Positions 1-23,238 of a DNA stretch of 64,000 nucleotides are shown piece by piece. Each line of letters begins with the position of its first letter. The first letter of the stretch is position 1. Under the pieces are notes generated by a model, which was not told the origin of the DNA, searched no databases, and saw only the letters and a list, made by a program, of their open reading frames with translations. This DNA is from Hyunsoonleella ulvae (GTDB lineage Bacteria > Bacteroidota > Bacteroidia > Flavobacteriales > Flavobacteriaceae). The DNA lies in contig NZ_JAEPJQ010000002.1 of assembly GCF_016827605.1 (NCBI RefSeq), positions 248,001 to 312,000 on the forward strand, read 5' to 3'. The position numbers and the translations under genes were made by a program.

Positions 1-2083
1 TTCCATAGGTTAATTCTACATTATTGTCATAATTTAAATCTTTATTTAAAACAATTTGATTATCAATTCTAACACCTGGTAATACTTCTTCGTTTTGTAT
101 TTTAAATTCTGTTATTAAAGGTTTTGGTGCATTGGTGTTTTCTTTAATATCTACAGGAGAAAAATAAATAATGTCCTTATCGCCACCTATATAAATTCTT
201 GTATTATCATATTGCAAAAACCCTCTTTTGTTTATGAGGTTAGAACGTACTCCGTTATTGATATGAAACGACCTATATTCATTTTTCTCAGGGATATATT
301 TTACAATTTTGTTATAGTTCATATTTAACCATAAGCATCCGTTGATGTCGGTAGCTATATCGGTTATCCAACTATTTTTTAATTCTGAAGGGTCTTCCTT
401 GGGTAAAAAATTATCTTTCTTGGCATCATAATAATTTAATCCCTTTCTTGTAGCTACCCAAACATTGCCGTTAACATCAACAATAATATCTTTTACTTTG
501 TTATTGGATAAACTTTCTTTATTTACTTCATGTTTATAATGCCTAGTTTCTTTGGTGTGGGTATTATATTTAAAGACACCCTCTTCTGTGGCTAACCAAA
601 CTATATTGCCTCTATCTGGAACAATTTTATTTACATCATTTAAGGCTTGTAGTTCGCTATTTATCTTAGAATATGTTTTTGTATTTAAATTATATTCTAC
701 CAATCCTTCCCCTACAGAACCTATCAACAATTTTTCTTTTGATGTTTGATGAAAGGTTAATACTGGAGATGATGTAAACCCTACGTTTAAAAGTCTCTCG
801 CGCTTTGTTTTTAAATTAAATGCTACAACTTTACCACTCCACAACCCAACATAAAAATCGATATTATTCACGGTGTAAATACTACTTATTTTCGTGTATT
901 TATTTAATATTTGTGTGAAACCATTTTCATCTTTTAAAAATATCCCGTTGGAATGTGTTCCTATTAAAAGTTTGTCATTATACGTTTTAGCAAAGCAACT
1001 TATAATGGGGATACTACCTTTTGAAGTGAAATTTGCCTTTATGGTTTTAAATTGATTTTCGTAAGGGTCTAACTTATCAAGACCATTCTCTGTACCCACC
1101 CATAGTATTCCTGAATAATCGAAAAAAAGTGATAACACATAGTTATTAGCGAGAGAGCTTGTATTGCTAATATCTGGAACATATCGTTTATATGTATTAC
1201 GTTTTATCTCATCGATACTTTCACATTCAATGATACCGTTAGAGGTACCAAACCAATATTTACCATCTGGAGCAACTGTATAACACCTAAAGTACTCTCC
1301 TAAACCATCTTTGTGAAGCAAACGGAATTTAGCTTCTTGCTGGTTGTATTTATAAAGCCCGTCTTTGGTTCCTATATACAAATCATTTTGGTGGTCTTCT
1401 AGAATAAAATAAGCATCAGAGTCATTTTGTAATTCGCCTTTGGCAGGAAATAATCTATGGTTTAGTAACTGACTTATCTTATTGTTTTTATCTATGGTAA
1501 AACTAAAAACTCCCATATTGAATGTTGTAAACCATATTTTCCCGTTACTGGTTTGATATATCGACCTTATATTTTTTACACCTTCAATATCTACTTCATG
1601 AAATTTATCGTCTTTTTCATCATAAAAACAAATTCCATTTTGCATGGTACCTACCCATAATCTATCTGAATTATCAATAAAAACAGACCTGATTTTATCT
1701 CCTATTATTTTATTTTTTTCATTCTTATTGGCATGATAGGTTTTAAAAGTATGAGTAGATATATTATACTTTGTTAGCCCAAAATCTGTTGCTATCCACA
1801 GGTTATCATGTTTATCAATTACAATTTCTAGAATATCATCGCTATGTAAGTAATTAGGTGTGTTAACCTTACTTTGATAGGCCTTAAAATCGTAACCATC
1901 AAATCTATTTACACCTCCAAAAGTACCAATCCATAAAAACCCGTTACTATCTTGTACTATATCCCTAACCGAGTTATGCGACAATCCATTTATTTCATTG
2001 TAATGTTCAAAAACCAGTTCTTGTGCTTGTGCGTAACAGCAAAACAAATACATGGTAAAACATAGGAAATTGAACTTTTTCAA
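1..2083 (-). CDS. Hybrid two-component system regulator (HTCS), N-terminal sensor part, cut by the window edge
   Basis: I translated this open frame by eye; it runs off the left edge. It starts with TTG at 2083 (KKF then a hydrophobic stretch and A-Q-A-Q, a signal peptide); an ATG at 2053 would cut most of that signal off. The next about 690 residues are two-component-regulator propeller repeats with recurring W-I/V-G-T and G-L-x-x-Y/F signatures, for example SNGFLWIGTFGGVNRFDG near the N-terminus. Close to the edge the sequence P-x-P-L-I-T-E-F-x-I looks like the start of a Y_Y_Y domain. In HTCS proteins this periplasmic double propeller binds a PUL oligosaccharide, and a histidine kinase, receiver and AraC-type DNA-binding domain follow; those parts lie outside the window. 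It is the last gene of the PUL operon, 11 bases after the metallophosphoesterase stop, and probably controls the susC promoter. Confidence 0.85.
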   Translation of the reverse strand, partial: MKKFNFLCFTMYLFCCYAQAQELVFEHYNEINGLSHNSVRDIVQDSNGFLWIGTFGGVNRFDGYDFKAYQSKVNTPNYLHSDDILEIVIDKHDNLWIATDFGLTKYNISTHTFKTYHANKNEKNKIIGDKIRSVFIDNSDRLWVGTMQNGICFYDEKDDKFHEVDIEGVKNIRSIYQTSNGKIWFTTFNMGVFSFTIDKNNKISQLLNHRLFPAKGELQNDSDAYFILEDHQNDLYIGTKDGLYKYNQQEAKFRLLHKDGLGEYFRCYTVAPDGKYWFGTSNGIIECESIDEIKRNTYKRYVPDISNTSSLANNYVLSLFFDYSGILWVGTENGLDKLDPYENQFKTIKANFTSKGSIPIISCFAKTYNDKLLIGTHSNGIFLKDENGFTQILNKYTKISSIYTVNNIDFYVGLWSGKVVAFNLKTKRERLLNVGFTSSPVLTFHQTSKEKLLIGSVGEGLVEYNLNTKTYSKINSELQALNDVNKIVPDRGNIVWLATEEGVFKYNTHTKETRHYKHEVNKESLSNNKVKDIIVDVNGNVWVATRKGLNYYDAKKDNFLPKEDPSELKNSWITDIATDINGCLWLNMNYNKIVKYIPEKNEYRSFHINNGVRSNLINKRGFLQYDNTRIYIGGDKDIIYFSPVDIKENTNAPKPLITEFKIQNEEVLPGVRIDNQIVLNKDLNYDNNVELTYG

Positions 2084-2094
2084 GGCAATTGGAT

Positions 2095-3879
2095 TTATTT
2101 AGAAATTACTTGATTGGTACTTAAATTTATCACAAAATTTTCAGATGGAGCTCCGTTTAAAAACTTTTTAAAGATTATACAGAATTGCAAGAAGTCATTT
2201 TCTATTTCTGATGGCTCACTAATCTTCTTAAAATGAATTAAGTAGGCTTCTATAATACTCTTATAGTTTTCAATCTTTTTTGCTCCAATATCTTGAAATG
2301 CCAACGTATCTGCAGAACGCAAGCGATACAAATCGAATAACATGTCAAAACCTGTCCAGTCCTCAAATCCTTCTAAAGTACTTTCGTCAATTGAAACAAA
2401 CTCTGAAACACTATTCTTAGTTAAACTCAGTAAAAATTTGGTAAACGGAATATCCCAATCCTTTTGCAAAAACCTATTATTAATTAGACCCTTCAAATGA
2501 CTTTGGGTAAAGTCTTTATAATTTGTTGCATTTAAAATTGTTGAATCCCACAGTGTACTGGCATCAGTGCTCTTTAAATGGGAGTACTCTAGTTGGTATA
2601 ATGGAAAGAGTTCCTTAAATCTGGGCACATTGTCAATAACGACGGTCTCAATCTCAACCTTATCTGCGGAGACCGTTGCTATTTTATAAGCAGGAATATA
2701 CGCCGATAATGAAGGTATTTGCACATTTACTAAACTACCTGATTCAAAAGTAGCGACACCTGTATCATTAATATGCATGTGCCCTCCAAAATGTACTTTT
2801 ACTCCTGCTTCAATAAATGCTTTGGCCACCGCTTCTTTGGGTACACGATGCAGTTGCATTTTATTTTCTCCTAGTAACATACGTATATTTTCTGAAGCAC
2901 CATCGTTAAATTCAACCGTTGGAAAATGGCTAAACACTATTAATTTTTTATTCAGCGTTTTTGCACGCTGTGTCACGCTTTTTACCCATGCTATTAGATG
3001 TGACTTATGCGATAATACATTATTATAGCCAACACTTGCACTGTTATAGTTATTGGCATCCTTAGGCACATACACATTAGCATCAATGGCTAAAAACCAT
3101 AGTCCCTCTGTCGGTTCTACCAAATAACTTACATCAGAAATTTGGCTTCCAAAAGGTGGGATTTTGTAATTTCTATTTGATAATTCAGCTTGTTTTAGAG
3201 CTTCATCAAATTGATAACTGTCGTAATTATAATCTGTAAATGGTGTCTCCCAATACACATCTTTTTGCTTTGGATAGAAACCGAAATCTTTTAATTCATT
3301 TAAGATATCTTCGTAACCTAATTTTGCAATATCTTTTGTAAAAACAGGTGCCAATGCGTTGGAGTCTTTTGCTTTGTATATCTCTTCCGAACTAAAAATA
3401 GGTTGCTGTTTTCCATCTTCGCCTATAAAATCATGCTTGCCCGCTTCTTGGTAAAATGGGCGCACTGGGTCGTGATTACCCGTAGTTAAAATAAACTTGA
3501 TGTTATGTGCTTCTGAATACTTTTTTAAAATCCGTTTTAAGCCCTTGATATTCAGCATTTGACCATCATCACTAAAATCCCCAGGCAATACAACATATTT
3601 AATGTTTTTGGATACTATATCGTCTAAAGCTGACAAAAAAGCAAAGTAGTTCTCATTAAATAACCGTGTAGATTGTAACTGAGACTGCATGGTTCTGGCT
3701 AGTGTATAGGTATTCGTTTCAGGGTTTAAAACACCCTTATAATCATTATCTGAAAATCTACCATAGATGTCTTGCAAATGCACATCGGCCATAAAGGCTA
3801 CTTCATAACTTTTATCATCCCTTTCTTTTTTACAAGAAAGACATACCAATAGTATTAATATGACGATACTTCTGTACAA
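2095..3879 (-). CDS. Large metallophosphoesterase lipoprotein
   Basis: A 594-residue calcineurin-like metallophosphoesterase. The start is TTG at 3879; it gives a lipoprotein signal peptide ending at C16 (V-C-L-S-C), and no ATG near it would keep the signal. Metal-site motifs are in the usual order: D32-x-H34, G-D101, G-N-H136-D, S-H318-F-P and G-G-H367-M-H369. The N-terminal about 370 residues hold the catalytic domain; the C-terminal about 220 residues match no domain I recognise. It follows the GH115 gene by 7 bases. In this PUL it may hydrolyse a phosphate monoester or diester on the glycan, for example inositol phosphate released by the adjacent PI-PLC, but the substrate cannot be read from sequence. 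The K-K-E-R-D-D after the lipid cysteine resembles surface-export signals of Bacteroidota lipoproteins. Confidence 0.85.
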   Translation of the reverse strand: MYRSIVILILLVCLSCKKERDDKSYEVAFMADVHLQDIYGRFSDNDYKGVLNPETNTYTLARTMQSQLQSTRLFNENYFAFLSALDDIVSKNIKYVVLPGDFSDDGQMLNIKGLKRILKKYSEAHNIKFILTTGNHDPVRPFYQEAGKHDFIGEDGKQQPIFSSEEIYKAKDSNALAPVFTKDIAKLGYEDILNELKDFGFYPKQKDVYWETPFTDYNYDSYQFDEALKQAELSNRNYKIPPFGSQISDVSYLVEPTEGLWFLAIDANVYVPKDANNYNSASVGYNNVLSHKSHLIAWVKSVTQRAKTLNKKLIVFSHFPTVEFNDGASENIRMLLGENKMQLHRVPKEAVAKAFIEAGVKVHFGGHMHINDTGVATFESGSLVNVQIPSLSAYIPAYKIATVSADKVEIETVVIDNVPRFKELFPLYQLEYSHLKSTDASTLWDSTILNATNYKDFTQSHLKGLINNRFLQKDWDIPFTKFLLSLTKNSVSEFVSIDESTLEGFEDWTGFDMLFDLYRLRSADTLAFQDIGAKKIENYKSIIEAYLIHFKKISEPSEIENDFLQFCIIFKKFLNGAPSENFVINLSTNQVISK

Positions 3880-3886
3880 TATTTTG

Positions 3887-6838
3887 CTATTTTAGTTTAG
3901 TTTCAGATGGAAAGGTATACGATGTTTTCCAACCGCCTAAATCAATTAAAATTTGGTCTAACATCACTCCGGGGTCTACCATCCAAATCTTTAATTTATG
4001 CTTTCCAGCTGTGTTCACTATTTGCTTAACGGATTGTACCGATGCATTTTTTAACACATTTTGCTTCCAAGTTTCACTTCGCCCAAAGGTTTGAAAATCT
4101 ACTATTACAGGTTCTGCATCATCTATAGCTACCGCACAACGCACCCCTGTATCATTATTAAAAGCGTGTGTTGGTACAGCCTGTAAAAACACATCTACCT
4201 CCCCAAAATTAAAGGCATAAAAATCATATTCTAAAATAGGACTATTTTGTTTTATGGCCTCAACGGAGGTTTCAGAAGTTGCGCTTCGTGGAAGTGCCAC
4301 ACTTACATTTCCTGTATGCCCTAGACCAGAAAAGGTTGTCCATTTGGCTTCTTTACCGTCTGCTTTTCTAGTGAAATTTTCAGCATTTATTGAGACAAAA
4401 CCTTTGTCTTCAACAAAACCTTTATAATTTTCTAGGTCTTTAAACTTTGGATTAAAAACCGAAACACCAAGCGTTGTCGTTTTGTTTTTGGTTACTACAT
4501 CTATAGCCGAATTCACTTTGTAACTTGGCGGTATTAATTGATAATCGTGTCCTAACGGAGCTTCCTTTTTATTTTCCCCCTGCGGTACTTTATCCCAGTC
4601 TATGGTAACCCAAATACGCTCTTCTAATTGTTCTTTATCTAATTTCCCCGAGGTTTTAGAAAGTATAATCCAATCGTCTTTTGGTTGTAATTCCCACTCC
4701 AATTCGCCTTGTCCTTTTAAGAACACATCCATGTAATATGTATTCTCTGTGTAAGCATTAAACACCGGAAAAACATCGGCATAAGAATTTATAATCTCAT
4801 CATTTACTTCCATTTGATAGCTCTCGATGGCTATCCCTAATGTATTTGATTTTTCGGTTAATGGGATGGATGCCGTTGGTTCTGAAAACACGGGCAAATG
4901 CCTAGGCGACATGCTCATGATATGCTTCCATTTTCCATTTTGAAGGGTGTTATTAAAATAATCGGTGTCTTTTTGAATGGTTTTGTATGCCTCTAAAGAT
5001 TTCGTTGCAAAATCCTTAGCACTCTCTCGCCCCTGCGAGGCCACAAAAGCATTTTTATAACTGTACAACCATTTTAAATTTAAGTTTGAGGCACCTGAAA
5101 TTGGATAATAAACGAGTTGATAAAAGGCATCTGCCTTATGGCTGGGAATATTTTTTTGAATAGCCTTCACACGAGAAATCAAATCTTGATGCGCTTTGAT
5201 ACGCTTACTAACCTCATCGCCATAATGGTATTGCGTCAACTCGGTGTTACCCGCTTTGGTTACAGGTTCAACACTACTCCACGCCATAAACTCAGGTCGC
5301 CTTTGAAACGCCAATTGATTGTATTGGTACATCAAATCGGTAATGGTAGTTGCATTATTTTTTCCAAATTCTCTGGCACTCCAATCCATATGATGCGCTC
5401 TGATGGTATCGTCATTTTTAAAGGCATCTATATTCCAAGCCATGTCCAAAAACAGCTCGATATTATATTCGTGGGGTTTGATATCGCCACAATTTAAAAT
5501 CCAAATATTTTGCGACCCAAACTCATAGGCTTTGGTCATTTCTTCCCACATTAAAACAGGATTCGTCGAGTTTAACCATAAATAATCATGTGGTCTTCCC
5601 CAATAGGATGTGTGATAATACACGCCCGCTCCTCCGCTTCGTTTTTGTTCTTCAGCATTACTTAATTGTCGAATATATCCGTAGTTATCATCGGTCCAAA
5701 CCAAACCTACATCTTCAGGTAAATCCAATCCGCTTTGGTAATAATGTAACACCTCTTTATACGGCACAAAAGCCTGAGGTTTTGTAACACCTTTTTTAGA
5801 ATTTGCTTTTAGAATCTCGCGTTGGTCGGTTATAACCTGTTCTAAAAGTTTTACTTGCGAATCGGTATCATCTTCCCCAACAATCATGGGCGAATCGTGT
5901 TCTCCACGCATACCAACCGTGTAAATCCCCTCAAAATTTGCGGTTTCTTTAGCTCGTTTTTTGAACAAGGTCTTTATGGATTCTGAATTGGTATCATATC
6001 GATAATCGCCCATAGTATCATGATTCCATTCTGCATTGATGTTGCACAACATAGGTTCTGCATGCGATGTACCAATAACAATCGCATAATTATCGGCTAC
6101 TATTTTATTTTTCGGATAGTGGTAAAATGCCTTAGTACATTTGTGCATTGCCGGCCAAATGGTATTGGCACGTAGGCGCAACAATAATTCAAATACTTTG
6201 GCATAGGTTTTTGGGCCTATATCTCCCGTTTCTGGCTCGTAATTTAGTGCCGACCACCGTTGCAAGCCCCAATCTTCGTCATTTAAAAATATACCTCGGT
6301 ATTTTACTGATGGCGTTCCGTAGGTTTTGTTTTCAATATGAAGCACAATACTTTCTTGCTTTTCTGGAGTAACATCTGCCCACCATTCCCACGGGGAAAC
6401 GCCTATCATTCTGGAAATATCTAAAAGTCCGTAAGCCGTTCCTCTTCGGTCTGAACCAATAATGACTAATGCTTTTTTTATGTCTTTTGAAGGATTTTCA
6501 ATGACTTGAATCGTGTAGGTTTCCCATTTCCCTCTAATTTGTGAGACATCAATAGCGTGTTTTTTTATGAGTTGATTTATAACTTTACTGTTCCCCAATG
6601 TTCCTGCTATAATTTGACATGGGGCTTTCTTTTGATGTTTCACAACCGTTTTTCCTGAAACTTTTTGGATATCGCTCGCCAAAATATCTGAAGCAATATC
6701 GACGACTTTGGCATCCCTTTTATCTATGATAATAGAGGCTACTTCTCCATTTTGTACTATTGGAAATTGAATACTATTTTGCCCCCAAAGAGAAGAACAA
6801 ATTATTAGAAATATGAATTTTATATAGCGTTTATTCAT
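3887..6838 (-). CDS. GH115 alpha-glucuronidase
   Basis: A 983-residue glycoside hydrolase of family GH115, close to the usual family length. Known members remove alpha-1,2-linked glucuronic acid or 4-O-methylglucuronic acid, mostly from xylan, without needing a free chain end. It has a Sec signal peptide ending near W-G-Q (residue 20), an N-terminal domain that includes I-I-G-S-D-R-R-G-T-A-Y-G-L and P-W-E-W-W-A-D (about residues 120-160), a central catalytic barrel and a C-terminal beta domain. There is no xylanase or xylosidase in the locus, so xylan is an unlikely target. Its ATG overlaps the stop of the upstream PI-PLC gene by 4 bases (ATGA), so the two are probably translationally coupled. 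I infer it removes glucuronate from a mannose- or inositol-containing glycan. Confidence 0.9.
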   Translation of the reverse strand: MNKRYIKFIFLIICSSLWGQNSIQFPIVQNGEVASIIIDKRDAKVVDIASDILASDIQKVSGKTVVKHQKKAPCQIIAGTLGNSKVINQLIKKHAIDVSQIRGKWETYTIQVIENPSKDIKKALVIIGSDRRGTAYGLLDISRMIGVSPWEWWADVTPEKQESIVLHIENKTYGTPSVKYRGIFLNDEDWGLQRWSALNYEPETGDIGPKTYAKVFELLLRLRANTIWPAMHKCTKAFYHYPKNKIVADNYAIVIGTSHAEPMLCNINAEWNHDTMGDYRYDTNSESIKTLFKKRAKETANFEGIYTVGMRGEHDSPMIVGEDDTDSQVKLLEQVITDQREILKANSKKGVTKPQAFVPYKEVLHYYQSGLDLPEDVGLVWTDDNYGYIRQLSNAEEQKRSGGAGVYYHTSYWGRPHDYLWLNSTNPVLMWEEMTKAYEFGSQNIWILNCGDIKPHEYNIELFLDMAWNIDAFKNDDTIRAHHMDWSAREFGKNNATTITDLMYQYNQLAFQRRPEFMAWSSVEPVTKAGNTELTQYHYGDEVSKRIKAHQDLISRVKAIQKNIPSHKADAFYQLVYYPISGASNLNLKWLYSYKNAFVASQGRESAKDFATKSLEAYKTIQKDTDYFNNTLQNGKWKHIMSMSPRHLPVFSEPTASIPLTEKSNTLGIAIESYQMEVNDEIINSYADVFPVFNAYTENTYYMDVFLKGQGELEWELQPKDDWIILSKTSGKLDKEQLEERIWVTIDWDKVPQGENKKEAPLGHDYQLIPPSYKVNSAIDVVTKNKTTTLGVSVFNPKFKDLENYKGFVEDKGFVSINAENFTRKADGKEAKWTTFSGLGHTGNVSVALPRSATSETSVEAIKQNSPILEYDFYAFNFGEVDVFLQAVPTHAFNNDTGVRCAVAIDDAEPVIVDFQTFGRSETWKQNVLKNASVQSVKQIVNTAGKHKLKIWMVDPGVMLDQILIDLGGWKTSYTFPSETKLK

Positions 6839-7896
6839 TTTATAATGTCTTTAATGCGTTCGTAAGTACCATCCTCAAATTTTACTTCAAAAGTAGATTT
6901 GAATAATCTTGAAGGTTGGTAATAATCTGTTGAAATCACTTGCGCTCCCGAAGCCTTTGCTTTTTCAAACTTGGTGTAATCGTTAGTTCGGGCCTCTTTT
7001 GTTCCAGCATCAGCACGAGTGCGTACCATATAACCTTGTGCCACCAATTGCTTGATATATTCAAAATCGGTAATAGGATTGTTTACAATTCTAAAGGCCG
7101 ATTCTGGATTTCCTTCTTTACTATTCACAAAAAATACACGGTTTTTCAGCGTATTGTCCCCATTCATGTACAGGCCATTTTTATGAGCTTTTTCATCTAA
7201 AACAAATAGAAATTTCCCTTTGCATTCTTCTAATTTTGGCCAACCTTGTTTTAAAACGGCTTCTTCTAAAGTACCATGGTTTCCTCTTACATCATCTGGT
7301 CGTATTAAATCCTCTTTTGTAAATACTGAAAATATTTCAGCATCTAATTCTTGATACGCTTTCGCTGAAAAGGGAATTGGTTTGGTTAAGTCTGGTATTA
7401 CCTTGTCTTTCGTATTCATTAAAATTATGATGGGCAGATGTGCAGGATTATTATCCGACCATTTCTTCATCGCTTTTAATGCCTCTTTGAACAGTAAATG
7501 ATGACTCCGAAAATCGATATCTTGGATATGAAATAGTTTAAACCCCGGTTGTTTTAATTGTTCTGATTCGTCAAAAGGCATTGGCGTTTTTCCCGATTGT
7601 TTGACAATTTCTAAGCCTTTTGGATTTAAAAAATGACCGCCTTCGGGGTCGTAAAACACATCTAGCTCTAAATTCCGTAAGCCAAGATTTAACTGTGCTA
7701 CTATGGAAATATGCTCGTATTCCAATGACTTCGCTTTACTGGAATCTTTTAAAGCGATGTCCTTTAAAAGTGGTTGTTCAATCGCAATTTTATAGGAATT
7801 GTGACTCCCAATTACCTGAATATCATTAAGTTTTATGGGTTGCTCTTTTGAACATCCAAAACACAGAAGCACAGCAAGAAGTACGAGGTGCTTCAT
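6835..7896 (-). CDS. Ca2+-dependent phosphatidylinositol-specific phospholipase C-like lipoprotein
   Basis: A 353-residue protein resembling the PI-PLC-C1 group (Ca-dependent phosphoinositide phospholipase C). It has a lipoprotein signal with lipid cysteine C15 (C-F-G-C). The first catalytic histidine is in V-I-G-S-H32-N-S-Y, the acidic metal-binding segment is L-R-N-L-E77-L-D79, and a second candidate histidine is H123 in L-F-H-I-Q-D. Enzymes of this fold cut between phosphate and the lipid of phosphatidylinositol or its glycosylated forms through an inositol 1,2-cyclic phosphate. It lies 2 bases after the GH125 stop and overlaps GH115 by 4 bases. Its place inside a mannosidase/glucuronidase operon, next to a phosphoesterase and close to an inositol oxygenase, suggests the glycan carries inositol phosphate. 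The true substrate is unknown. Confidence 0.82.
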   Translation of the reverse strand: MKHLVLLAVLLCFGCSKEQPIKLNDIQVIGSHNSYKIAIEQPLLKDIALKDSSKAKSLEYEHISIVAQLNLGLRNLELDVFYDPEGGHFLNPKGLEIVKQSGKTPMPFDESEQLKQPGFKLFHIQDIDFRSHHLLFKEALKAMKKWSDNNPAHLPIIILMNTKDKVIPDLTKPIPFSAKAYQELDAEIFSVFTKEDLIRPDDVRGNHGTLEEAVLKQGWPKLEECKGKFLFVLDEKAHKNGLYMNGDNTLKNRVFFVNSKEGNPESAFRIVNNPITDFEYIKQLVAQGYMVRTRADAGTKEARTNDYTKFEKAKASGAQVISTDYYQPSRLFKSTFEVKFEDGTYERIKDIIK

Positions 7897-7898
7897 AT

Positions 7899-9338
7899 TT
7901 AAATGGATTTAAGAAGTTCTGGCTTTTCGTTGTATAATTTCAAGATTAACTCGCCAAAAAGGGTGTTTGCCCATGCAAACCAAGAACGCGAAAATTTGGA
8001 TGCATCATCTTTATGGAAGGTTTCGTGCATAAACCCTTTACCATCGTGGGTATTCATTAACTGTTTTACACACCACACAATTTCAGAATCACTATCGCTG
8101 GTCATGGCCCGTAAAATAATCCCCATAGGCCAAATGGTGTCTAAACCTGCATGCGGACCGCCTTGTCCTTCGCCCGCCTTTCCTTTAAAATAATAAGGGT
8201 TGTCGTCACTTAACAGATAAGCTCTTGTATTTTTATACGCCTCTAAATCGTAATACCGCTCGCTCATTAAATACTTCATGGCGATTAAAGATGGAATGTT
8301 TGGGTCGTCTATAAATGCTTTATTGCCAAAACCATCCACTTCAAAGGCATATACTTTACCATAGTTTAAGTGTTCTGAAATGGCATATTTGTTTATCGCA
8401 TTTAGTACTTCATTTGAAAAGGATTGACATGCTTCTGAAAACGCTTTGTCTCTAAAAACATCCTTATAAATCTCGCTTAACTGGGCTAAAGACTCCACCG
8501 CAAATAAATTAGATGGAATTAAAAACGGATACATGGTACCATCATCTGAAGGTCTAAACGCAGAACATATAAGTCCGACAGGCTTAATAGGCCTACCCTT
8601 TCCACTAAAAGGCGTAATGATATTTTTATTTCGTCTTACGCGCTCAAAATAATAGGGTGTTTCTCCATTTTTACGTTGCTCTGTTCTTAGCGTTTTTACC
8701 GCGAGTCGCATGGCTTTATCCCAATTGGCATCTAAAACAGAGGTATCTCCCGTTTCCTTATAATATCCATAAGATAAACGAACAGCATAGCACAACGAAT
8801 CTATTTCCCATTTACGCTCATGCACACCGGGTATTGGGGTTGGGCGGTCGTCCTTCCATTTGGTTTCTCTGGTCAGGTCTTTATAAAATGCGTTGGCATA
8901 AGGGTCTAACAAAATGCATTTGGTTTGCCTGTTGATTAAACCTTTAAATAGCTTTTTTAATGCTTCATCTTGATTTACCAAAGGCAAATACGGCCATACC
9001 TGAGCAGTAGAATCCCTGAGCCACATGGCGTCAATATCGCCAGTAATAACAAAGGTATCTGGTTTGTTATTTATGACTTCGAAATCTACCGTAGTATCTA
9101 AAGTGTTTGGAAAACAGTTTTCAAAAAGCCACGACAATTCTGGGTTTTTTATGCCCTTTTTTACCGTTTTAATGGTATTTTCAACGGCTTGACTTATAAA
9201 GGTTCTATCGGCTAATGGTGGTCTGTTAGATGTAAAGGATGATGTGCTTGAAGCCATCGTAAATGCCGAACAACTCAGTGTAGCAACTCCCGTTGTACCT
9301 ATAATCGTTTGCTTTATAAATTTTCGTCGTGTGGTCAT
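7899..9338 (-). CDS. GH125 exo-alpha-mannosidase
   Basis: A 479-residue protein of the metal-independent alpha-mannosidase family GH125. Characterised members remove non-reducing alpha-1,6-linked mannose. The diagnostic segment D-I-D-A-M-W-L-R-D-S is at residues 101-110, followed by conserved W-P-Y and, near the C-terminus, the G-P-H-A-G-L-D-T-I-W-P-M-G segment. The N-terminus has a twin-arginine-like T-R-R-K-F-I-K motif and then a possible lipobox (T-L-S-C at 20-23), so it may be a Tat-exported, lipid-anchored enzyme, which would suit a protein that must fold before export. It is separated from the upstream GH92 gene by 43 bases and from PI-PLC by 2. Together with two GH92 enzymes it indicates stepwise removal of alpha-mannose residues. 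Confidence 0.92.
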   Translation of the reverse strand: MTTRRKFIKQTIIGTTGVATLSCSAFTMASSTSSFTSNRPPLADRTFISQAVENTIKTVKKGIKNPELSWLFENCFPNTLDTTVDFEVINNKPDTFVITGDIDAMWLRDSTAQVWPYLPLVNQDEALKKLFKGLINRQTKCILLDPYANAFYKDLTRETKWKDDRPTPIPGVHERKWEIDSLCYAVRLSYGYYKETGDTSVLDANWDKAMRLAVKTLRTEQRKNGETPYYFERVRRNKNIITPFSGKGRPIKPVGLICSAFRPSDDGTMYPFLIPSNLFAVESLAQLSEIYKDVFRDKAFSEACQSFSNEVLNAINKYAISEHLNYGKVYAFEVDGFGNKAFIDDPNIPSLIAMKYLMSERYYDLEAYKNTRAYLLSDDNPYYFKGKAGEGQGGPHAGLDTIWPMGIILRAMTSDSDSEIVWCVKQLMNTHDGKGFMHETFHKDDASKFSRSWFAWANTLFGELILKLYNEKPELLKSI

Positions 9339-9381: not shown

Positions 9382-11679
9382 CTACTTTGTCCCAGTCATT
9401 TCAAGTTTTAGCACCCCGCCGTTAGTTAGGGTTTTATGAGACACATTAAATTTAAGTAAATCCTCGTTATTAAAAGAGGCCTCTTTTATGAAAACATTAG
9501 AACTGCTATTGTTTACGGATTGAATCTCCAAAGTCTTCCCTGAATAATACTCTGGATGTAATTGGATGGTTACCTTATCAAAAATAGGACTTCCTATTTG
9601 ATACTCTGGATTTTCCTCTGTACCTCCATTAACTTGAAACAGCCCAATTTTTATTAAAACGGCTAAACTTCCCATGAGACCTTGGTCTTCATCGCCATTG
9701 TATCCTGTGGATGGGGCTAGACCGCCAAAAACCTTAGAAGCCACTTGCCTAGACCAATAGTGGGTTAAATCTGGTCTATCTAATTTATTAAAAATAAAGG
9801 CTGTTTGAATAGATGGTTGGTTACCATAATTTATGGGGATTTTACGATACTCTGGGTGCAATTCTGAAGCATGCGATGTGCCCGAAGTAAAGTTTAATTG
9901 TTCCGCTTGTTTAAATTGTGTATTTAATTTTTCAACAGCTTTGTCTTTGCCTCCCATGAGTTCAGCAAGTCCATCGTAATCATGTGGTACAAACCAAGTA
10001 GATTGCGCGCCATTGGATTCTATAAACCCTTCTTCGTAGGTATACGGACTATAGTCTGCTTGCACTTTACCATCAACATTTTTGGCTTGCATCCAGCCCT
10101 CATCATTTAAAAGTGTAGCATAACTTTTTGAACGTTTTATGAAGTATTCATAATCTTCCGTCTTATTCAGCTTCAGTGCCAATTGGGCCAATACCCAATC
10201 TTGATAGGCATACTCTAAAGTTAAACCTGCACCATCTTGATGTCCGCCAAACTTCCCTTTAGGATTAGGATGTGGCACAAAGCCTTTTTCCATATAGAAA
10301 TCCAGTCCGCCTCCAATATTGGTTTTATGCTCATAACCTGCTTTTTCCATGATACCACCTTCTAAATGGTTTTTCTTCAAAGCATCATAAATGTCTTCTA
10401 GATTTTCCTTTAAAATACCTTTTTGAATCGCGCTGACAAAAAACGGTGTGGCTGGGGAGCCTGTCATAACGTAGGTGTAATTTCCACCTGATGGCCCTCT
10501 GGGAACCAAGCCTCCATCTTTATAATATTGAAGAAAAGACATGGCAAACTCTTCATAAATATCTGGGTAAGCTAGTCCCCAGAGTGTATTTAGTGTCCAT
10601 TGGGCTCCCCAAAGCGCATCAGAATTGTAATGATTGAATTTTGGTTTTCCCGAAGTATCCAACGGCAATTGTCCTATCTTAAATTTACCTCCAGTATTAT
10701 CAGGATACGCACCATTTACATCATTAATATTGCGTCTGCCCTGAAGCGCATGCCATAAATCTGTATAAAAACGTCTTTGTTGTTTTTCGGTATTGCCTTC
10801 TACCTTTATTCTACTTAATAACGAATTCCAATGGTCTTTGGAATCTTGAACAACTGCTTCAAAATCCCAGTGTGGTAACTCTGTTTTAAGATTCAAGTTG
10901 GCATTTTCTTCTGAAGTGTACGAGATAGCCACCTTCATAAGTAAGGGCTTTTCCAAATTAGAAAAATGCATCAAGTAATTACCTGTTGCTTCATCTTTTT
11001 GTAATTCAGTTACTGGAGCATCGAGACTTACACTAAAGAACACCTTAAATTCTTGAGGCCTTCTGTGGGTTGGTGTTGCCACTACTGAACCCGCAAATTC
11101 CGTATCACTAATTTGGCGCAATTCTCCTTGAGCATTATCTGATGGCCCAAGTATGGTATTCAAATTAAATAGAACGGCATTTTTGGTTTTTTCTGGAAAG
11201 GTATACTTATGAAACCCCACTCTTGTGGTACTGGTAAGCTCTGTTCTAATGCCATAACGTTGTAGCTCCAGACTATGATAACCTGGTGTTACCGTCTCAT
11301 CATCATGACTAAATTTTGAGTAAAAATCTTTGAAAACGGTTTTAGTATTCTCGTCAGAAAGCGTTACCGGCATAACCGACACACCCGATATTTGCCATCC
11401 ATGTATATGGCTAAAGCCTTTAATGGTATCGGTTTTATAACGATAACCACTGCCCCAAGCTCCGTCTATTTCGTTATCTGGACTTAGGTTTACCATGCCA
11501 AACGGGCGACATGCTGATGAAAAGAAAAACCATCTGGAATTCTCTGTATCTAAATGCGGATATACCAAACTTGCATAATCTATTGCTTTATTGGTTGTAT
11601 CAACAGTTGTTTTATCTTCATTTTTACATGAAAACAGTATACTTAAAACGGTTATTGTTACTATTAAATATTTTCTCAT
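9382..11679 (-). CDS. GH92 alpha-mannosidase (copy 1)
   Basis: A 765-residue GH92 lipoprotein (lipid cysteine in I-L-F-S-C18-K-N-E-D). GH92 enzymes are Ca-dependent exo-alpha-mannosidases acting mostly on alpha-1,2, and in some subgroups alpha-1,3, -1,4 or -1,6 bonds. Family landmarks are G-M-V-N-L-S-P-D and G-F-S-H-I-H-G-W near the N-terminus, T-L-E-Y-A-Y-Q-D-W, which contains the likely general-acid glutamate, and the acidic G-D-E-D-Q-G segment near the C-terminus in the place of the usual N-D-D-x-G. It lies 4 bases after the GH28-like stop. It is distinct from the second GH92 gene at 13316-15391 in both the acid and the base motif, so the two probably have different linkage preferences. 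Confidence 0.92.
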   Translation of the reverse strand: MRKYLIVTITVLSILFSCKNEDKTTVDTTNKAIDYASLVYPHLDTENSRWFFFSSACRPFGMVNLSPDNEIDGAWGSGYRYKTDTIKGFSHIHGWQISGVSVMPVTLSDENTKTVFKDFYSKFSHDDETVTPGYHSLELQRYGIRTELTSTTRVGFHKYTFPEKTKNAVLFNLNTILGPSDNAQGELRQISDTEFAGSVVATPTHRRPQEFKVFFSVSLDAPVTELQKDEATGNYLMHFSNLEKPLLMKVAISYTSEENANLNLKTELPHWDFEAVVQDSKDHWNSLLSRIKVEGNTEKQQRRFYTDLWHALQGRRNINDVNGAYPDNTGGKFKIGQLPLDTSGKPKFNHYNSDALWGAQWTLNTLWGLAYPDIYEEFAMSFLQYYKDGGLVPRGPSGGNYTYVMTGSPATPFFVSAIQKGILKENLEDIYDALKKNHLEGGIMEKAGYEHKTNIGGGLDFYMEKGFVPHPNPKGKFGGHQDGAGLTLEYAYQDWVLAQLALKLNKTEDYEYFIKRSKSYATLLNDEGWMQAKNVDGKVQADYSPYTYEEGFIESNGAQSTWFVPHDYDGLAELMGGKDKAVEKLNTQFKQAEQLNFTSGTSHASELHPEYRKIPINYGNQPSIQTAFIFNKLDRPDLTHYWSRQVASKVFGGLAPSTGYNGDEDQGLMGSLAVLIKIGLFQVNGGTEENPEYQIGSPIFDKVTIQLHPEYYSGKTLEIQSVNNSSSNVFIKEASFNNEDLLKFNVSHKTLTNGGVLKLEMTGTK

Positions 11680-11683: not shown

Positions 11684-13312
11684 TTACTTAATTACTAAAA
11701 TATTTTCCTTTATGGCATCACTATGTGTAAAATTTTCTTTTCCTTCAAATACGAATTGTTTGTGGGCAGTTTCTGGAACTTTGACGCTTTCTAAATGTAC
11801 ACCATCAACGCCATGGAACACAAAAGCTGGTCTAAAATCGTGATGTTCTAACTTTAAATTTACGTTTTTATATGTAATGTTGTTTGCATGTTTTACATAA
11901 AATCCCCAAGCTGGCAACTCGCCAAACATTGAAAATTCCGGATAATCTTTTATTTTCTCGGGCACTTGTTCCAATCTGCTTAACGGTACATAAGCCATCC
12001 CTTTTGATGCTCTTCCGGGATATGTAATTTCTACATTTTCGATGGTTACGTTTTCAATGTTGTGACCAGGAATACCAACAATGGAAGATGGAAAAGGGTT
12101 ATGGAAAAAGTCTACTTCAGGCCCTCGTAAATCGTAATCTATGTCTGGTCTTCCAAAAGGCACCTCCACTTTGATATCTTTAATGTGAATATTTTTTACA
12201 ACTCCCGGTGCATCTCCGCCTCTATGCCCTAATCTTATAAAAATGGCATTACCTGTATTTTTCGCTATGATATTGGAAACGTTGATGTTTTCAATAACAC
12301 CGCCATCTACACTTTCAATTGCTATGGCTGAACGGAACGTATCGTATACTTCTATACTATCAATGGTTACGTTTTTAAATCCGCCGTAAGAAGCTGTTCC
12401 AAATTTTAAGGCACTGGCGCTACTTCTTATTTTACAATTTGCTATGTAAATGCTATCGTTGTAATAGGCTGGGAAGTATGATTTTAGGCAAATACCGTCA
12501 TCGGCTGAATTTACATCACAATTTGTGATTTGTACATTTTTGCAATCGGTAATGTCCATACCGTCGTTATTCCAATAGGCTCTATTGATAATTTTTAAAT
12601 TATCCAGTTTTAATTTTTCACATAATTCGAAAGACAATCCCCAGCATGCTCCATTTTGAAGATGGAGGTCTAAAATATCTACATTTTTACACATAGAAAA
12701 TCTGAACAACTTAGGTCTTGCTGTTTCGTTGGGGCGCATACGCCTGTAGTTATATTTTGGGTCTTTGCGTTCTCCTGAATGGTGTAAGCTATCAATATTT
12801 AAAGCCAATGCTCTACCTTGACCGTCTATTTTTCCTTGACCATATATCTTAAAGTTATTGGCCTTATAAGCCACCAAAAATGCCATATTGGAATAGTCAT
12901 CGCGCTTGGGAGACTCTGGACGTTCAGGCATTGGCACATCTGAATAATGATAGGGATTTGTACTTCCCAACAATACAGCATCTTCTTTTAAATAAAGACT
13001 TACGTTAGATTTCATTACCAAGCCTCCTGAAAGATATTGCCCTTTTGGAAATACCAAGGTGCCCCCATTTTCCTTATGAACCTTATCTATTAATTGTTGT
13101 AATGCTATGGTGTTTAGGGTTGTGCTATTACCAACTATACCATAATCTGTAACCAGATATTCTGTATCGTTGGTCTTTTTTATATAGTTCTTATTTATTT
13201 CAATTTGAGAGACATTTACAGCTGTTTTTGGTGTTTCGTTACACGACCAAAAAAATAAGGTCAGCAACAACACGTATAAAACAGAACTATTAAATTTTGT
13301 CTTGTATGTCAT
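11684..13312 (-). CDS. GH28-like right-handed beta-helix lipoprotein
   Basis: A 542-residue secreted lipoprotein (lipid cysteine C24 in F-F-W-S-C) with the architecture of GH28 polygalacturonase-type enzymes. A pectate-lyase-like N-terminal segment (A-L-Q-Q-L-I-D with G-G-T-L-V-F-P-K-G-Q-Y) leads into a beta-helix. GH28 motifs seen are N248-N249-D250-G (usual N-T-D), D271-D272-G and I-F-I-R360 (usual R-I-K). The third motif, usually G-H-G, is replaced by S-A-L-K-F-G-T around residues 300-306, so the conserved histidine is absent. It may be an exo-galacturonidase of a divergent subgroup or have another uronate specificity; uxaB and uxaA nearby fit galacturonate release. It sits between the two GH92 genes with gaps of 3 and 4 bases. 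Confidence 0.75.
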   Translation of the reverse strand: MTYKTKFNSSVLYVLLLTLFFWSCNETPKTAVNVSQIEINKNYIKKTNDTEYLVTDYGIVGNSTTLNTIALQQLIDKVHKENGGTLVFPKGQYLSGGLVMKSNVSLYLKEDAVLLGSTNPYHYSDVPMPERPESPKRDDYSNMAFLVAYKANNFKIYGQGKIDGQGRALALNIDSLHHSGERKDPKYNYRRMRPNETARPKLFRFSMCKNVDILDLHLQNGACWGLSFELCEKLKLDNLKIINRAYWNNDGMDITDCKNVQITNCDVNSADDGICLKSYFPAYYNDSIYIANCKIRSSASALKFGTASYGGFKNVTIDSIEVYDTFRSAIAIESVDGGVIENINVSNIIAKNTGNAIFIRLGHRGGDAPGVVKNIHIKDIKVEVPFGRPDIDYDLRGPEVDFFHNPFPSSIVGIPGHNIENVTIENVEITYPGRASKGMAYVPLSRLEQVPEKIKDYPEFSMFGELPAWGFYVKHANNITYKNVNLKLEHHDFRPAFVFHGVDGVHLESVKVPETAHKQFVFEGKENFTHSDAIKENILVIK

Positions 13313-13315: not shown

Positions 13316-15391
13316 CTAATTTTGTTTTCCCCAAAGTGTATTGGGCATGTCTGTTAATTCAAATTGTAAAACGCCTCCTTTAGAAATTAAATTAAAGTCT
13401 ATAATACTTGAATTAATTTCTGCGCCATTCCATGTAACTTTTTGAATGTAAATTGTATTTGGTGTTCTGCCATTGGTAATAATTTCCAATGGTTTGTCTT
13501 TTGTTTTTATGGTTATCTTATCAAATTGAGGTACTGTTAGTGCTAACTGCGTACTTCCCGGAAACACAGGGTAAAGCCCTATTGTGGACCAAACATACCA
13601 TGAGGACATGGTGCCTGCATCATCATCCATTTCTTTGATATAGCCATTTGGTGTTGCCGTAAATATTTTTTTTACAATTGGTGCTTCAAACTTTTCGTGG
13701 GTGCCGTACCAGTTGTTAGTTACTTTGTTGAGTAACTTGTCTACTAACTGTTGTGTTTTCCAAGGCGAATTGGTGTAGTTATACAAATAAGGCACTTGAA
13801 TATCTGGTTGATTACCAATGTTAAACAGTTCATTATCAAAGAAATAATCTAATTGATTTTCAAATTCGTCTTTACCTCCCGTCATAGTTTGAATGCCTTG
13901 CATATCAAAAGGCACAAACCATCGGTATTGCCACAGGGTTCCTTCGTACAATCCATCGCCATGCATAACATCTGAGTTTTCATCCATGTTCATGAATTTA
14001 TTCTCCCACGTGGTTTTATATTCAAAAGCTCGTGCTCTGTAAAATTCTGCATCTACGTCTTTTCCTAATATTTCAGAAATTTCAGAAAGCGCCCATAAAT
14101 CGTAACTAGATTCCAAAACATTGTCTGGCGATTTAAAAGGTAGGTGTTTTGCTTCTTCCTTTAATTCGTCATAAACTTCATTTAAATCAAATGGTAGAAT
14201 TCCTTTTCTATAAGCATCCAGCAACATGACTATGCTATGCTCAGTTCTTATGGTTAAAAACGGTTCTGTTTCTGTTGCCCAATCTGGTTTGCCTTGTTTG
14301 TATAATCGTTTTAAGGACAATAACATGTCTTGATATCTCTCTGGATAAACCAAAGAAAACAGAGGCAACTTTGTTCTAAATGTGTCCCAAATAGACCAAC
14401 CGTGGTAAGTTGGTGTTTTGCTATTATACAGTTTATTGTCACTTCCTCTTACCTCGCCGTTATCATCATTTATAATAAATGGAGACTGTGTGGCATGGTA
14501 TAGATGGGTGTAAAACATGGTTTTAAGCGAATCGTTTTTGGTTTCTACATTTACAACATCCAGTAAGTCGTTCCACTGCTTTTTCGAAGCATTTTTAACC
14601 GTTTCGAAATCAAAATTCAAACTCTGGATTAAATTATAACTAGCATTAGCCTTACTTACACTAGATAAAGCGACTCTTAATACGACCTCTTCGTCTTTCT
14701 TGGTTTTAAATTGAAAGGATACCGTTGATGAATCATTAGAAATTCCTATGTCTCCCTTATTTAAAGCCAATGCATAATAGAACGTATACTTACCCTTTTT
14801 ACAAACATTTATACTTGTTACCTTTCCACTAACAATGCCTTTGCTAATTTGATGTTCTTCTGAAACGTGTCCTACAAAGGAGCTGGCCAAATCAATAGAT
14901 ATTCCTGAGTTTTCAGACTCGGGGAATGTATATTTATGAAATGCAACCTGTCTTATACCTGTCAATTCAGTAGTAACACCATTATTTAAATCAACTTTGT
15001 AATACCCAGCCGAAGCCGTTTCACTTTCTTTTTTGAAACGTAATTTTTTAGAGGTGGAGTCTTGTTCTGAAATCACAAGAGGCAGTACTCGTAAATTACC
15101 GCCTACACCTCTACAGCCTACACCAGAAAATCTCGTATTTGAAAAGCCGATAATTTCTTTGGCCATATAGTCGTACCCAGAATGTGCTATAGGATTGGTA
15201 TCTGGGCCTGGTTTTACCATACCAAATGGTACCGAAGCCGATACATCTGTTTGTCCGTGATCATCTGAGGTACAGATGAAAGGGTTGATGTAGTCTACGT
15301 TTTGTTTTGATTCTACTAAAGGGACATCAGCATGCTTTTGGCATCCTAAAACAACTAAGAATAATATGATTTCTAGATGGCGTTTAACCAT
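13316..15391 (-). CDS. GH92 alpha-mannosidase (copy 2)
   Basis: A second GH92 enzyme, about 691 residues from the ATG at 15391. A TTG 15 bases upstream is also open, but the ATG gives a clean lipoprotein signal (M-V-K-R-H then a hydrophobic stretch and L-G-C). Landmarks are F-I-C-T-S-D-D-H-G-Q-T and F-S-N-T-R-F-S-G-V-G near the N-terminus, W-S-I-W-D-T-F-R-T in the catalytic domain, L-E-S-S-Y-D-L-W in the position of the general-acid motif, and D-D-D-A-G-T-M-S-S-W near the C-terminus, matching the catalytic-base region. It is the first enzyme gene after susD and follows a 123-base gap containing hairpins. It is expected to be an exo-alpha-mannosidase; the linkage is not predictable by eye. Confidence 0.9.
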   Translation of the reverse strand: MVKRHLEIILFLVVLGCQKHADVPLVESKQNVDYINPFICTSDDHGQTDVSASVPFGMVKPGPDTNPIAHSGYDYMAKEIIGFSNTRFSGVGCRGVGGNLRVLPLVISEQDSTSKKLRFKKESETASAGYYKVDLNNGVTTELTGIRQVAFHKYTFPESENSGISIDLASSFVGHVSEEHQISKGIVSGKVTSINVCKKGKYTFYYALALNKGDIGISNDSSTVSFQFKTKKDEEVVLRVALSSVSKANASYNLIQSLNFDFETVKNASKKQWNDLLDVVNVETKNDSLKTMFYTHLYHATQSPFIINDDNGEVRGSDNKLYNSKTPTYHGWSIWDTFRTKLPLFSLVYPERYQDMLLSLKRLYKQGKPDWATETEPFLTIRTEHSIVMLLDAYRKGILPFDLNEVYDELKEEAKHLPFKSPDNVLESSYDLWALSEISEILGKDVDAEFYRARAFEYKTTWENKFMNMDENSDVMHGDGLYEGTLWQYRWFVPFDMQGIQTMTGGKDEFENQLDYFFDNELFNIGNQPDIQVPYLYNYTNSPWKTQQLVDKLLNKVTNNWYGTHEKFEAPIVKKIFTATPNGYIKEMDDDAGTMSSWYVWSTIGLYPVFPGSTQLALTVPQFDKITIKTKDKPLEIITNGRTPNTIYIQKVTWNGAEINSSIIDFNLISKGGVLQFELTDMPNTLWGKQN

Positions 15392-15408
15392 AAAATTGCT
15401 TTTCAAAT

Positions 15409-15529: not shown

Positions 15530-17188
15530 CTAATAATTAGGGTTTTGGTCTATAGAACCTTCAGATAGAGCAACTTCATTATCAGGAATTGGTCTTACTA
15601 AATGAGTACCTGCACTAAATGCACCGTGATCTACAATATGTGGGTTGTACATATTAATGCGTTCTTCTAATTTACCTGCGCGCTTTAATACAGCCCATCT
15701 ATCTTCTTCTCCTGCAAGTTCTATAGCTCTTTCATCAAGAATGGTATCAATATCTACAGAAGTATAATGATTTACTACACCAGTAGCTCGTTCTCTAACC
15801 CTGTTTAAGTGACTTAATGCAGAAGTTGTATTACCAGCTCCCAAATACGCTTCAGCTGCAATTAAATGCGTCTCTGCAATTCTAAATAGAAATGTATCCC
15901 TTGATCCTCCATTTTCTGCATCAATACCTACATCATCAAACTTCTTAAATATTGGGAAATTCGTTCTTAAAACATTAGAGGAATACTGATAAATAACTCC
16001 TGGTACATTATCTGGAAGCCCAAATAAATACTGATCTGGTTGATATACCCAGTACCTGTTTAACTTATCTGCTAACTCAGCAGCATCTATAGGTTCTTTA
16101 GGATAATACACGATTGTATCTCCAGGCACAACATTATCTGTACCTTCTGGCGATGTGAATGTAGCTTCCTCATCTGCAAATAACACTCTATGTAATGTTA
16201 CTTCATCTCTTGAATCATTGTTTGCCAATAATTCAAAGAAACGAGGCGTTGGCATTAAACCAGTATTATTAGCTCCATAAGGATTAGCTCTTCCTATACC
16301 AACATAATTATCGACAGGATTCATAAAAATTCCATGCTTGTTATTATTCCTGTCATCAAAATTACCCCCAGGCCCATATTGAACTGCAAAAAGAATCTCA
16401 GGATTTACTTGATTACCATAATCGAATACTTGCGCATAGGTTTGACTTCTTATATCATAAGACCCAATGGCTTCCTCTGCCAAGTTAGCTGCAGTTGTAA
16501 AATCCGAAGCACTACCGAATGATTTATAAGCCCTTGTTAAATAAACATCGGCTAATAAATGTTGAGCAGCACGCTTAGACATTCTACCTGTTTGTGGATT
16601 ATCTCCTAAATTAGGGATAGCTTCTTCCAAATCTCTAATAATTTGAGTAAAGGTTTCTTCTTCAGAAGACCTCACATAATCTGTACGAATTGAATTAGTT
16701 TCGTTCAATTCCAAAACTATACCTCCAAAATGTCTAACCAAATTGTAGAAACCAAGTGCTCTTAAAGCTTTTGCTTGGGCTATTCCATTGTCACGAACGG
16801 CTAAATTGGCATCGCTCCATGAAATTTGGTTCTCATAGCGATTTATAACCGTATTGGCATCTGATGTTAAACCATAATTTGCACCCCAAAAAAACGCAGA
16901 ATTACCTTCACTAGCTGTGAGACCAAAATAATCATTTATTGCAAGGTTACTCCTTACATCGTCTTGTGAAGTAAACACATCTGTTCCTGGGAACATAATT
17001 CCATAATTCTTGTACACTGCACGTAAATTACCATACATTCCAGCTACTAATTGATCTGCATTGTTTTCATTTATAGAGTTTTCGGCAACTAAACCACCAT
17101 AAAACTCCTCTTCTATATAGCTTTCACAGGCTGTAAAAATTAAGCCTAGTAATAAAACTATGTTTTGTATTTTAAAAATTGATTTCAT
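15530..17188 (-). CDS. SusD/RagB-family outer-membrane glycan-binding lipoprotein
   Basis: A 552-residue SusD-like lipoprotein (lipid cysteine in F-T-A-C-E-S-Y). It has the usual alpha-helical TPR-type arrangement, including A-K-A-L-R-A-L-G-F-Y-N-L-V-R-H-F-G-G (about residues 135-155), R-A-A-Q-H-L-L-A-D-V-Y-L-T-R-A, and near the C-terminus A-E-T-H-L-I-A-A-E-A-Y and L-N-R-V-R-E-R-A. It ends in N-P-N-Y as many family members do. It acts as the lid that captures oligosaccharide over the SusC transporter at the cell surface. The gene is 18 bases after the SusC stop. Confidence 0.95.
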   Translation of the reverse strand: MKSIFKIQNIVLLLGLIFTACESYIEEEFYGGLVAENSINENNADQLVAGMYGNLRAVYKNYGIMFPGTDVFTSQDDVRSNLAINDYFGLTASEGNSAFFWGANYGLTSDANTVINRYENQISWSDANLAVRDNGIAQAKALRALGFYNLVRHFGGIVLELNETNSIRTDYVRSSEEETFTQIIRDLEEAIPNLGDNPQTGRMSKRAAQHLLADVYLTRAYKSFGSASDFTTAANLAEEAIGSYDIRSQTYAQVFDYGNQVNPEILFAVQYGPGGNFDDRNNNKHGIFMNPVDNYVGIGRANPYGANNTGLMPTPRFFELLANNDSRDEVTLHRVLFADEEATFTSPEGTDNVVPGDTIVYYPKEPIDAAELADKLNRYWVYQPDQYLFGLPDNVPGVIYQYSSNVLRTNFPIFKKFDDVGIDAENGGSRDTFLFRIAETHLIAAEAYLGAGNTTSALSHLNRVRERATGVVNHYTSVDIDTILDERAIELAGEEDRWAVLKRAGKLEERINMYNPHIVDHGAFSAGTHLVRPIPDNEVALSEGSIDQNPNY

Positions 17189-20260: not shown

Positions 20261-20620
20261 TTGTAATAAATTTAGATTAGTCAAAATTATTTGGTTAAAA
20301 TTAAGTTAAGACCTAGGACTTGATATGGAATTTTACATCAAAAACATGGAAATATCATTTAGACGTCATTTAAAACACTGGACATTATTCTACATAAAAC
20401 TAAGCTTAAATTTCTGATTTTACCCAAATTGATGTATGTTATATTCTACCCAAGCAAATACTGTATTGATTAAATAATCCATATAAATAAACTATTAGTC
20501 CATTATACTAAATATCGCTGTGGTTAAATTTGTTACTCGCTGATTTTATGTAACTTGTTAAGTTCATTTGTTCTTATTAGAACTAAAAAATTAGTGAATT
20601 AAAATTAAATACTAAGTCGC
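20261..20620. promoter_or_regulatory. Divergent intergenic region between susC and the inositol oxygenase gene
   Basis: No gene is seen in these 360 bases. Toward susC (minus strand) a good -7 box, TAATTTTG, lies at 20282-20289, but no TTG is found at the expected 17-23 base spacing, which may mean the promoter depends on the HTCS activator. Toward the oxygenase gene, TTTG at 20529-20532 and TAACTTG at 20551-20557 have an 18-base spacing; the second box is imperfect. TAAATTTG at 20525-20532 is a perfect -7 box but has no upstream TTG. An inverted pair GTTAC/GTAAC flanks 20532-20554. I found no copy of the 14-bp palindrome seen at the uxaB promoter. Confidence 0.45.
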
Positions 20621-23109: not shown

Positions 23110-23238
23110 AGTACTCTAAAACTGATGCTTTTATTAAGACTCCCCCTTTTTATGATTTATTAATAAAACCTTATAAACTATCATTCTTTAATATTTAATT
23201 TTTATTTTGCTTATCACTTCATTCATGATTGAATATTG

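Follow-up and report, generated by a model that had tools for sequence, protein, structure and literature searches.

A stretch of 64,000 nucleotides from the genome of Hyunsoonleella ulvae (assembly GCF_016827605.1, contig NZ_JAEPJQ010000002.1, positions 248,001 to 312,000), here called the window and numbered from its first base, carries on its minus strand two adjacent genes, one for a phosphatidylinositol-specific phospholipase C (PI-PLC) and one for an alpha-glucuronidase of glycoside hydrolase (GH) family 115. The PI-PLC gene (6835..7896; 353 aa; PF16670, 417.2 bits) lies immediately upstream of the GH115 gene (3887..6838; 983 aa), and the two overlap by four bases (6835..6838). The plus strand reads TCAT at this position, that is ATGA on the coding strand, which holds both the TGA stop of the PI-PLC and the ATG start of the GH115. 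The original prediction for this stretch had described this arrangement, and its coordinates, gene identities and shared ATGA are borne out by the open reading frames (ORFs), the Pfam matches and the sequence. We suggest that the locus around the pair probably serves the utilisation of glucuronosyl-inositol phospholipids, most likely glycosyl inositol phosphorylceramides (GIPCs) of plants or algae.

The PI-PLC and its GH115 partner

The product of 6835-7896 combines the PF16670 match with a TIM barrel of the PLC X type, which together assign it to PI-PLC-C1; by profile and predicted fold it is a PI-PLC of the Ca2+-dependent type with intact catalytic residues. The predicted structure (pLDDT 81.5) superimposes on the Streptomyces antibioticus enzyme 3h4w with a Z score of 23.6 (root-mean-square deviation 3.0, 254 aligned residues) and on the Ca2+-dependent PI-PLC of Pseudomonas, 5fyo, with a Z score of 23.4, and these matches rank above those to eukaryotic PLCs. 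H32, N33, E77, D79 and H123 are invariant among 52 homologues, and the His/Asn and Glu/Asp residues and the second active-site His are thus all present. Judged by eye, the N-terminus (MKHLVLLAVLLCFGCSKEQ) resembles a lipoprotein signal, and that of the GH115 is a plain signal-peptide-like start.

The GH115 matches PF15979 with 437.6 bits (cut-off 27) and the GH115_C domain PF17829 with 154.2 bits (cut-off 24.1). D187, R311, D315 and YYH407-409 are invariant among 113 homologues; the equivalents of Asp177, Arg299, Asp303 and Tyr403 of wtsAgu115A are kept as D187, R311, D315 and Y407/Y408, the catalytic positions of the xylan-active enzymes being taken from PMC9063842. In the tree, the window GH115 falls inside a subfamily clade of 32 rows (support 100/99) that takes in Prolixibacteraceae and Alteromonadaceae, whereas BoAgu115A, SdeAgu115A and wtsAgu115A form a separate group (100/100) together with other Flavobacteriaceae paralogues. 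BtGH115A sits on a long branch outside the subfamily clade, its exact placement being unsure. At the position two residues ahead of the catalytic acid, subfamily members carry a Glu (RGEHDSPM) where the sister group has mostly Val or Ile and the xylan-active enzymes have Asp (RGDGD). A phosphoesterase or PI-PLC lies near 51 of the 61 rows with this Glu313 and near none of the 47 rows without it, counts in which the overlap of two collections makes a few loci appear twice. By clade and motifs, the window enzyme falls outside the xylan-active group and is assigned to a non-xylan subfamily of its own, with Glu313 next to the catalytic acid as its marker. The original prediction had named grouping with xylan-active members, together with action only on glucuronoxylan, as what would speak against a new specificity; the phylogeny has now been run, and because the clade is separate and strongly supported, the phylogenetic half of that objection falls away. 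The claim of novelty has to be narrowed, however, since a GH115 acting on something other than xylan is not new in itself: BtGH115A was reported to be active on arabinogalactan and not on xylan, a report that has been questioned (PMC9063842).

A distant GH115 homologue of 685 aa (PF15979, about 69 bits) replaces or accompanies the GH115 in loci of the same type (L042:7206-9263, L031:5130-7187, L044:16128-18191 and L046:11439-13496). We considered it as a replacement alpha-glucuronidase and rejected this, as the profile alignment shows neither the RG..D nor the NDE motif intact. It may represent a new enzyme family.

Gene order and conservation of the locus

The genes from the SusC-like transporter to the regulator share one orientation; most gaps between them measure 2 to 43 bases and one measures 123, and nearby junctions within the operon have gaps of 2, 3, 4, 7 and 11 bases. 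Another four-base overlap is present in the window at 40778-40781 (ORFs 38856-40781 and 40778-42031), which makes such overlaps ordinary here. In orthologous loci that have both genes, the PI-PLC lies directly upstream of the GH115 and the junction varies from overlaps to short gaps, the small overlaps being uncertain as ORF starts were assigned mechanically. These varying junctions rule out the ATGA as a conserved coupling signal. Adjacency and tight operon packing are conserved, the exact ATGA is not, and the overlap itself is incidental. The joint stoichiometric production that had been read from the ATGA is not supported, since the whole operon is tightly packed.

Among 299 Flavobacteriaceae genomes, PI-PLC-C1 is rare and found in 24, GH115 in 46 and a myo-inositol oxygenase (MIOX) above the cut-off in 47. 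At 12 sampled Flavobacteriaceae loci of the GH115 subfamily, the PI-PLC lies about 1.5 kb from the GH115 in seven, and ten have a same-subtype MIOX no more than 30 kb away from it (binomial p ~4e-17 for a chance of about 1.5% per genome, estimated roughly and without regard to shared ancestry). The MIOX proteins of the Flavobacteriaceae (L027 to L086) form two score groups, at about 370 and about 320 bits, and this locus type is accompanied by the first group only.

We scanned 84,980 species genomes with the peptide patterns VSPWEWW and NDEDWGLQ, which sample the non-xylan side of GH115 only, and obtained 80 loci, 46 with a GH115 at least 57% identical to that of the window and 34 with a more distant one. 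The two nearest loci are from Seonamhaeicola (GH115 94-95% identical). A phosphoesterase is present in 42 of the 46 closer loci and in none of the 34 distant ones (Fisher p 1.7e-18); the corresponding figures are 31 and none for the PI-PLC, which is always adjacent (p 3.7e-11), and 31 and one for the first GH92, GH92a (p 1.2e-9). In one other locus, L105, the PI-PLC is fused. The functional pairing of PI-PLC and GH115 proposed earlier thus finds its support in conserved adjacency. Gene maps show the locus to be modular, its core being stable and its glycosidases variable, and many Flavobacteriaceae have the same block. The GH115 is the most constant glycosidase, while GH89 and GH125 vary; in sister loci GH125 and GH28 are replaced by GH89 with an HGSNAT-like membrane acetyltransferase, by GH29, GH2, GH3 or GH51, or by an esterase. 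The GH89 (NAGLU) adjoins the HGSNAT-like acetyltransferase at L029:13375-16751 and in Flavobacterium loci such as L104, L109 and L118.

A second type of locus (L041, L054, L058, L059, L060, L061, L062, L063, L065 and L067) has a PI-PLC-C1 46-63% identical to that of the window and a different SusC/SusD set, often with the metallophosphoesterase, and lacks GH115 and mannosidases. It possibly serves plain scavenging of phosphatidylinositol or inositol lipids.

Genes of the surrounding locus

In its own direction the minus-strand operon reads SusC, SusD, GH92, GH28, GH92, GH125, PI-PLC, GH115, metallophosphoesterase and regulator. It starts with a SusC-like TonB-dependent transporter (17207..20284; PF07715, PF13715) and a SusD-like glycan-binding lipoprotein (15530..17188; PF07980, PF14322), followed by the second GH92, GH92b (13316..15406; PF07971, 338 bits), a galacturonidase-like GH28 family member of uncertain role (11684..13312; PF00295, 81.9 bits), GH92a of the alpha-mannosidase family (9382..11679; PF07971, PF17678) and a member of the exo-alpha-1,6-mannosidase family GH125 (7899..9338; PF06824, 521.1 bits). 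Beyond the GH115 lie a calcineurin-like metallophosphoesterase, a probable lipoprotein (2095..3879; PF00149, 40.3 bits), and a regulator of the hybrid two-component system (HTCS) type (2..2083) that is cut by the window edge; Reg_prop, HisKA, Response_reg and AraC HTH domains are present in its full-length orthologue (L027:1314-5345). The SusC/SusD pair, the glycosidases and the regulator together identify a polysaccharide-utilisation locus (PUL). No xylan-type gene is present within it, as had been noted before.

The metal-ligand residues of the metallophosphoesterase are all invariant among 59 homologues. Its profile matches Lmo2642, which is also the closest fold (Z 29.2), with SMPDL3 proteins lower. 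Because the GIPC-cleaving PLC of Botrytis is sphingomyelinase-like, we considered that the protein might be an acid sphingomyelinase; this was rejected on the proximity to Lmo2642, and the protein had no sequence match in the PDB. The enzyme, a phosphoesterase of open specificity, is predicted to dephosphorylate inositol phosphate or to open its cyclic form.

Divergent from the operon, the plus strand encodes MIOX (20621..21496; PF05153, 369.5 bits), a Na+/solute symporter that is a predicted inositol importer (21535..23109; PF00474, NF007790 above cut-off) and a LacI-family regulator (23236..24255; PF00356, PF00532). The symporter comes next after MIOX in most mapped loci. Beyond these, on the minus strand, are a UxaA/GarD-type altronate/galactarate dehydratase (24267..25904; PF20629, PF04295) and the tagaturonate reductase UxaB (25904..27361; NF002969, 650 bits, cut-off 359). 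UxaC and UxuA are encoded in the same genome, near each other on contig C20 and away from the locus.

Discussion

Directly observed are the genes present and their intact catalytic residues, an association conserved across loci, a GH115 clade of its own, and UxaC and UxuA encoded by the same genome. Enzymes for inositol phosphate, glucuronate, mannose and inositol catabolism are present and co-conserved, and both the enzyme set and its conservation fit a glucuronosyl-inositol phospholipid, the kind of compound that the original prediction had in mind, as the probable target. The key clue is MIOX, which beside a PI-PLC and an alpha-glucuronidase suggests that inositol and glucuronate are both consumed. 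GIPCs, the main plant sphingolipids and described as major membrane lipids of plants, have a core of glucuronate, inositol phosphate and ceramide, to which mannose, glucose, N-acetylglucosamine or glucosamine and then arabinose, galactose, mannose and fucose are added (PMC12201980, PMC9113257). IPUT1, the glucuronate transferase of GIPC, is homologous to the xylan transferase GUX1 (PMC4528235), and a single hydrolase family, GH115, acting on both GIPC and xylan would parallel this. The enzymes swapped in sister loci match the GIPC sugars closely, GH89 with the HGSNAT-like protein corresponding to glucosamine or N-acetylglucosamine, GH29 to fucose, GH2 and GH3 to galactose and GH51 to arabinose. 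Animal lysosomes use the same NAGLU/HGSNAT pairing on heparan sulfate, where glucosamine is acetylated before GH89 cleavage. Glucosamine-type GIPCs would likewise need acetylation before GH89 could act.

In the pathway that we propose, the surface PI-PLC would cut the bond between inositol phosphate and ceramide, and the freed glycosyl-inositol phosphate would be taken up by the SusC/SusD pair. Periplasmic GH92, GH125 and GH28 (in sister loci GH89, GH29, GH2, GH3 and GH51) would then trim the outer sugars, the GH115 would take the alpha-linked glucuronate off the inositol, and the metallophosphoesterase would open or remove the inositol phosphate. Finally, the symporter would import myo-inositol, MIOX would oxidise it to glucuronate, and both glucuronates would enter the UxaC/UxuA pathway.

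The reverse order on the same substrate deserves some thought but appears the less likely course: exo-glycosidases and GH115 would act first, and the PI-PLC would cleave inositol-phosphoceramide once its 2-OH is free. The product of classical PI-PLCs is a 1,2-cyclic phosphate, and the window enzyme has the full set of catalytic residues. GIPC glycans may be attached at inositol O-2 and/or O-6 (PMC4970446), so that the earlier claim of an obligatory first cut by the glucuronidase stands only if the glucuronate is on O-2 and this PI-PLC uses the 2-OH. Against the reverse order, SusC/SusD systems import oligosaccharides and not membrane lipids, so that release of the head group is expected first; moreover, the PI-PLC is apparently a lipoprotein and the GH115 apparently periplasmic. 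The 3h4w enzyme is said to use the inositol 6-OH, forming a 1,6-cyclic phosphate, and if so, glucuronate on O-2 would not block such a PI-PLC. A fungal PLC from Botrytis cinerea, though of another family, releases intact mannosyl-glucuronosyl-inositol phosphate from Arabidopsis GIPC (PMC11496612). Given a GIPC-type substrate, the import logic and the apparent protein locations thus lead us to lean towards the PI-PLC acting before the glucuronidase.

Other targets fit less well. GH92, GH125, GH89 with the acetyltransferase and PI-PLC would suit glycosylphosphatidylinositol (GPI) anchor glycans, with their mannose and glucosamine on inositol, and the target could be these or another inositol glycan rich in mannose, such as fungal mannosyl-inositol lipids or mycobacterial phosphatidylinositol mannosides and lipoarabinomannan. 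None of them is known to bear alpha-glucuronate, yet the GH115 is the most constant glycosidase, whereas GH89 and GH125 are variable, and we think such a target improbable. It is similarly doubtful that the GH115 acts on an arabinogalactan-type or other glucuronate-bearing polysaccharide like BtGH115A, with the PI-PLC serving separate phospholipid scavenging. BtGH115A is the best match in the PDB (5by3, 616 bits), and PI-PLC with SusC/SusD is found elsewhere without GH115; however, BtGH115A lies outside the subfamily clade and lacks Glu313, the subfamily is tied to phosphoesterase or PI-PLC and MIOX, and arabinogalactan enzymes do not define the locus. Although characterised GH115s are mostly xylan-active (PMC13059095), phylogeny, motifs and context contradict a xylan-active enzyme among chance neighbours in an unrelated cluster, which can hardly be right.

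Several points weigh against GIPC utilisation. PI-PLC-C1 is found nowhere in seven genomes with a subfamily GH115 (L107, L113, L115, L116, L126, L127 and L128), several of which are metagenome-assembled or draft genomes; another phosphodiesterase may make the cut there, or already released head groups may be taken up. Most of these seven keep the metallophosphoesterase. No gene for ceramide use was found within the locus, and the search of the algal literature gave nothing useful on a GIPC with this sugar set in marine hosts of the genus. GH28 has no obvious role on GIPC, and it co-occurs with the adjacent UxaA and UxaB, which are part of the galacturonate branch; the substrate of this variant may thus also carry galacturonate. 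The lipoprotein and cell-location calls were made by eye from N-termini. Which substrate is used, its specificity for GIPC, the linkage, where in the cell the proteins act and the sequence of the steps are all inferred.

The enzyme families are known; what is new is their combination, the predicted target and the GH115 subfamily. Marine and plant-associated bacteria appear to share a conserved cluster that removes sugars and inositol from glucuronic-acid-bearing inositol phospholipids. On balance, though with less assurance than for the window locus itself, we favour the view that these loci form a widespread bacterial family for plant or algal GIPCs, with glucuronosyl-inositol as the natural substrate of the GH115 subfamily and outer enzymes swapped between species according to the head-group series, mannose-type or glucosamine-type, the latter handled by the HGSNAT-like acetyltransferase and GH89. 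No bacterial GIPC catabolic locus was found in the 5.39 million open papers searched, weak evidence of absence since subscription papers lay mostly outside it. If correct, this would be the first named bacterial pathway for GIPC breakdown and would give part of GH115 a defined non-xylan role. It would also give plant lipid researchers a tool that they lack, enzymes that trim GIPC head groups, and link the turnover of plant or seaweed membrane lipids to carbon use in Flavobacteriaceae.

Several known systems come close to the locus or its parts. Botrytis cinerea GIPC-PLC1 would catalyse the reaction proposed for the window PI-PLC, freeing glycosyl-inositol phosphate from GIPC (PMC11496612), but it is a fungal enzyme annotated as sphingomyelinase, not PI-PLC-C1, and has no associated catabolic locus. 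The 3h4w and 5fyo enzymes share the PI-PLC-C1 type and fold of the window protein (Z 23 to 24), but are only 20 to 24% identical to it, and the window protein sits inside a glycan-import locus. Mannan and N-glycan PULs with GH92 and GH125 have SusC/SusD, HTCS and alpha-mannosidases in common with the window locus, to which PI-PLC, GH115, phosphoesterase and MIOX are added. The Bacteroides thetaiotaomicron enzyme BtGH115A shares with the window GH115 the active-site motifs DEDWGL, WPAMH, HD and SYWGRPHD and is likewise not of the xylan type, but has Val at position 313. The xylan alpha-1,2-glucuronidases BoAgu115A (4c90), SdeAgu115A (4zmh) and wtsAgu115A (7pug) belong to the same fold family and have the same catalytic Asp, Arg and Tyr positions, but they differ from the window enzyme in their RGDGD and NDEAPxL motifs, in their separate place in the tree and in lacking a PI-PLC or MIOX context.

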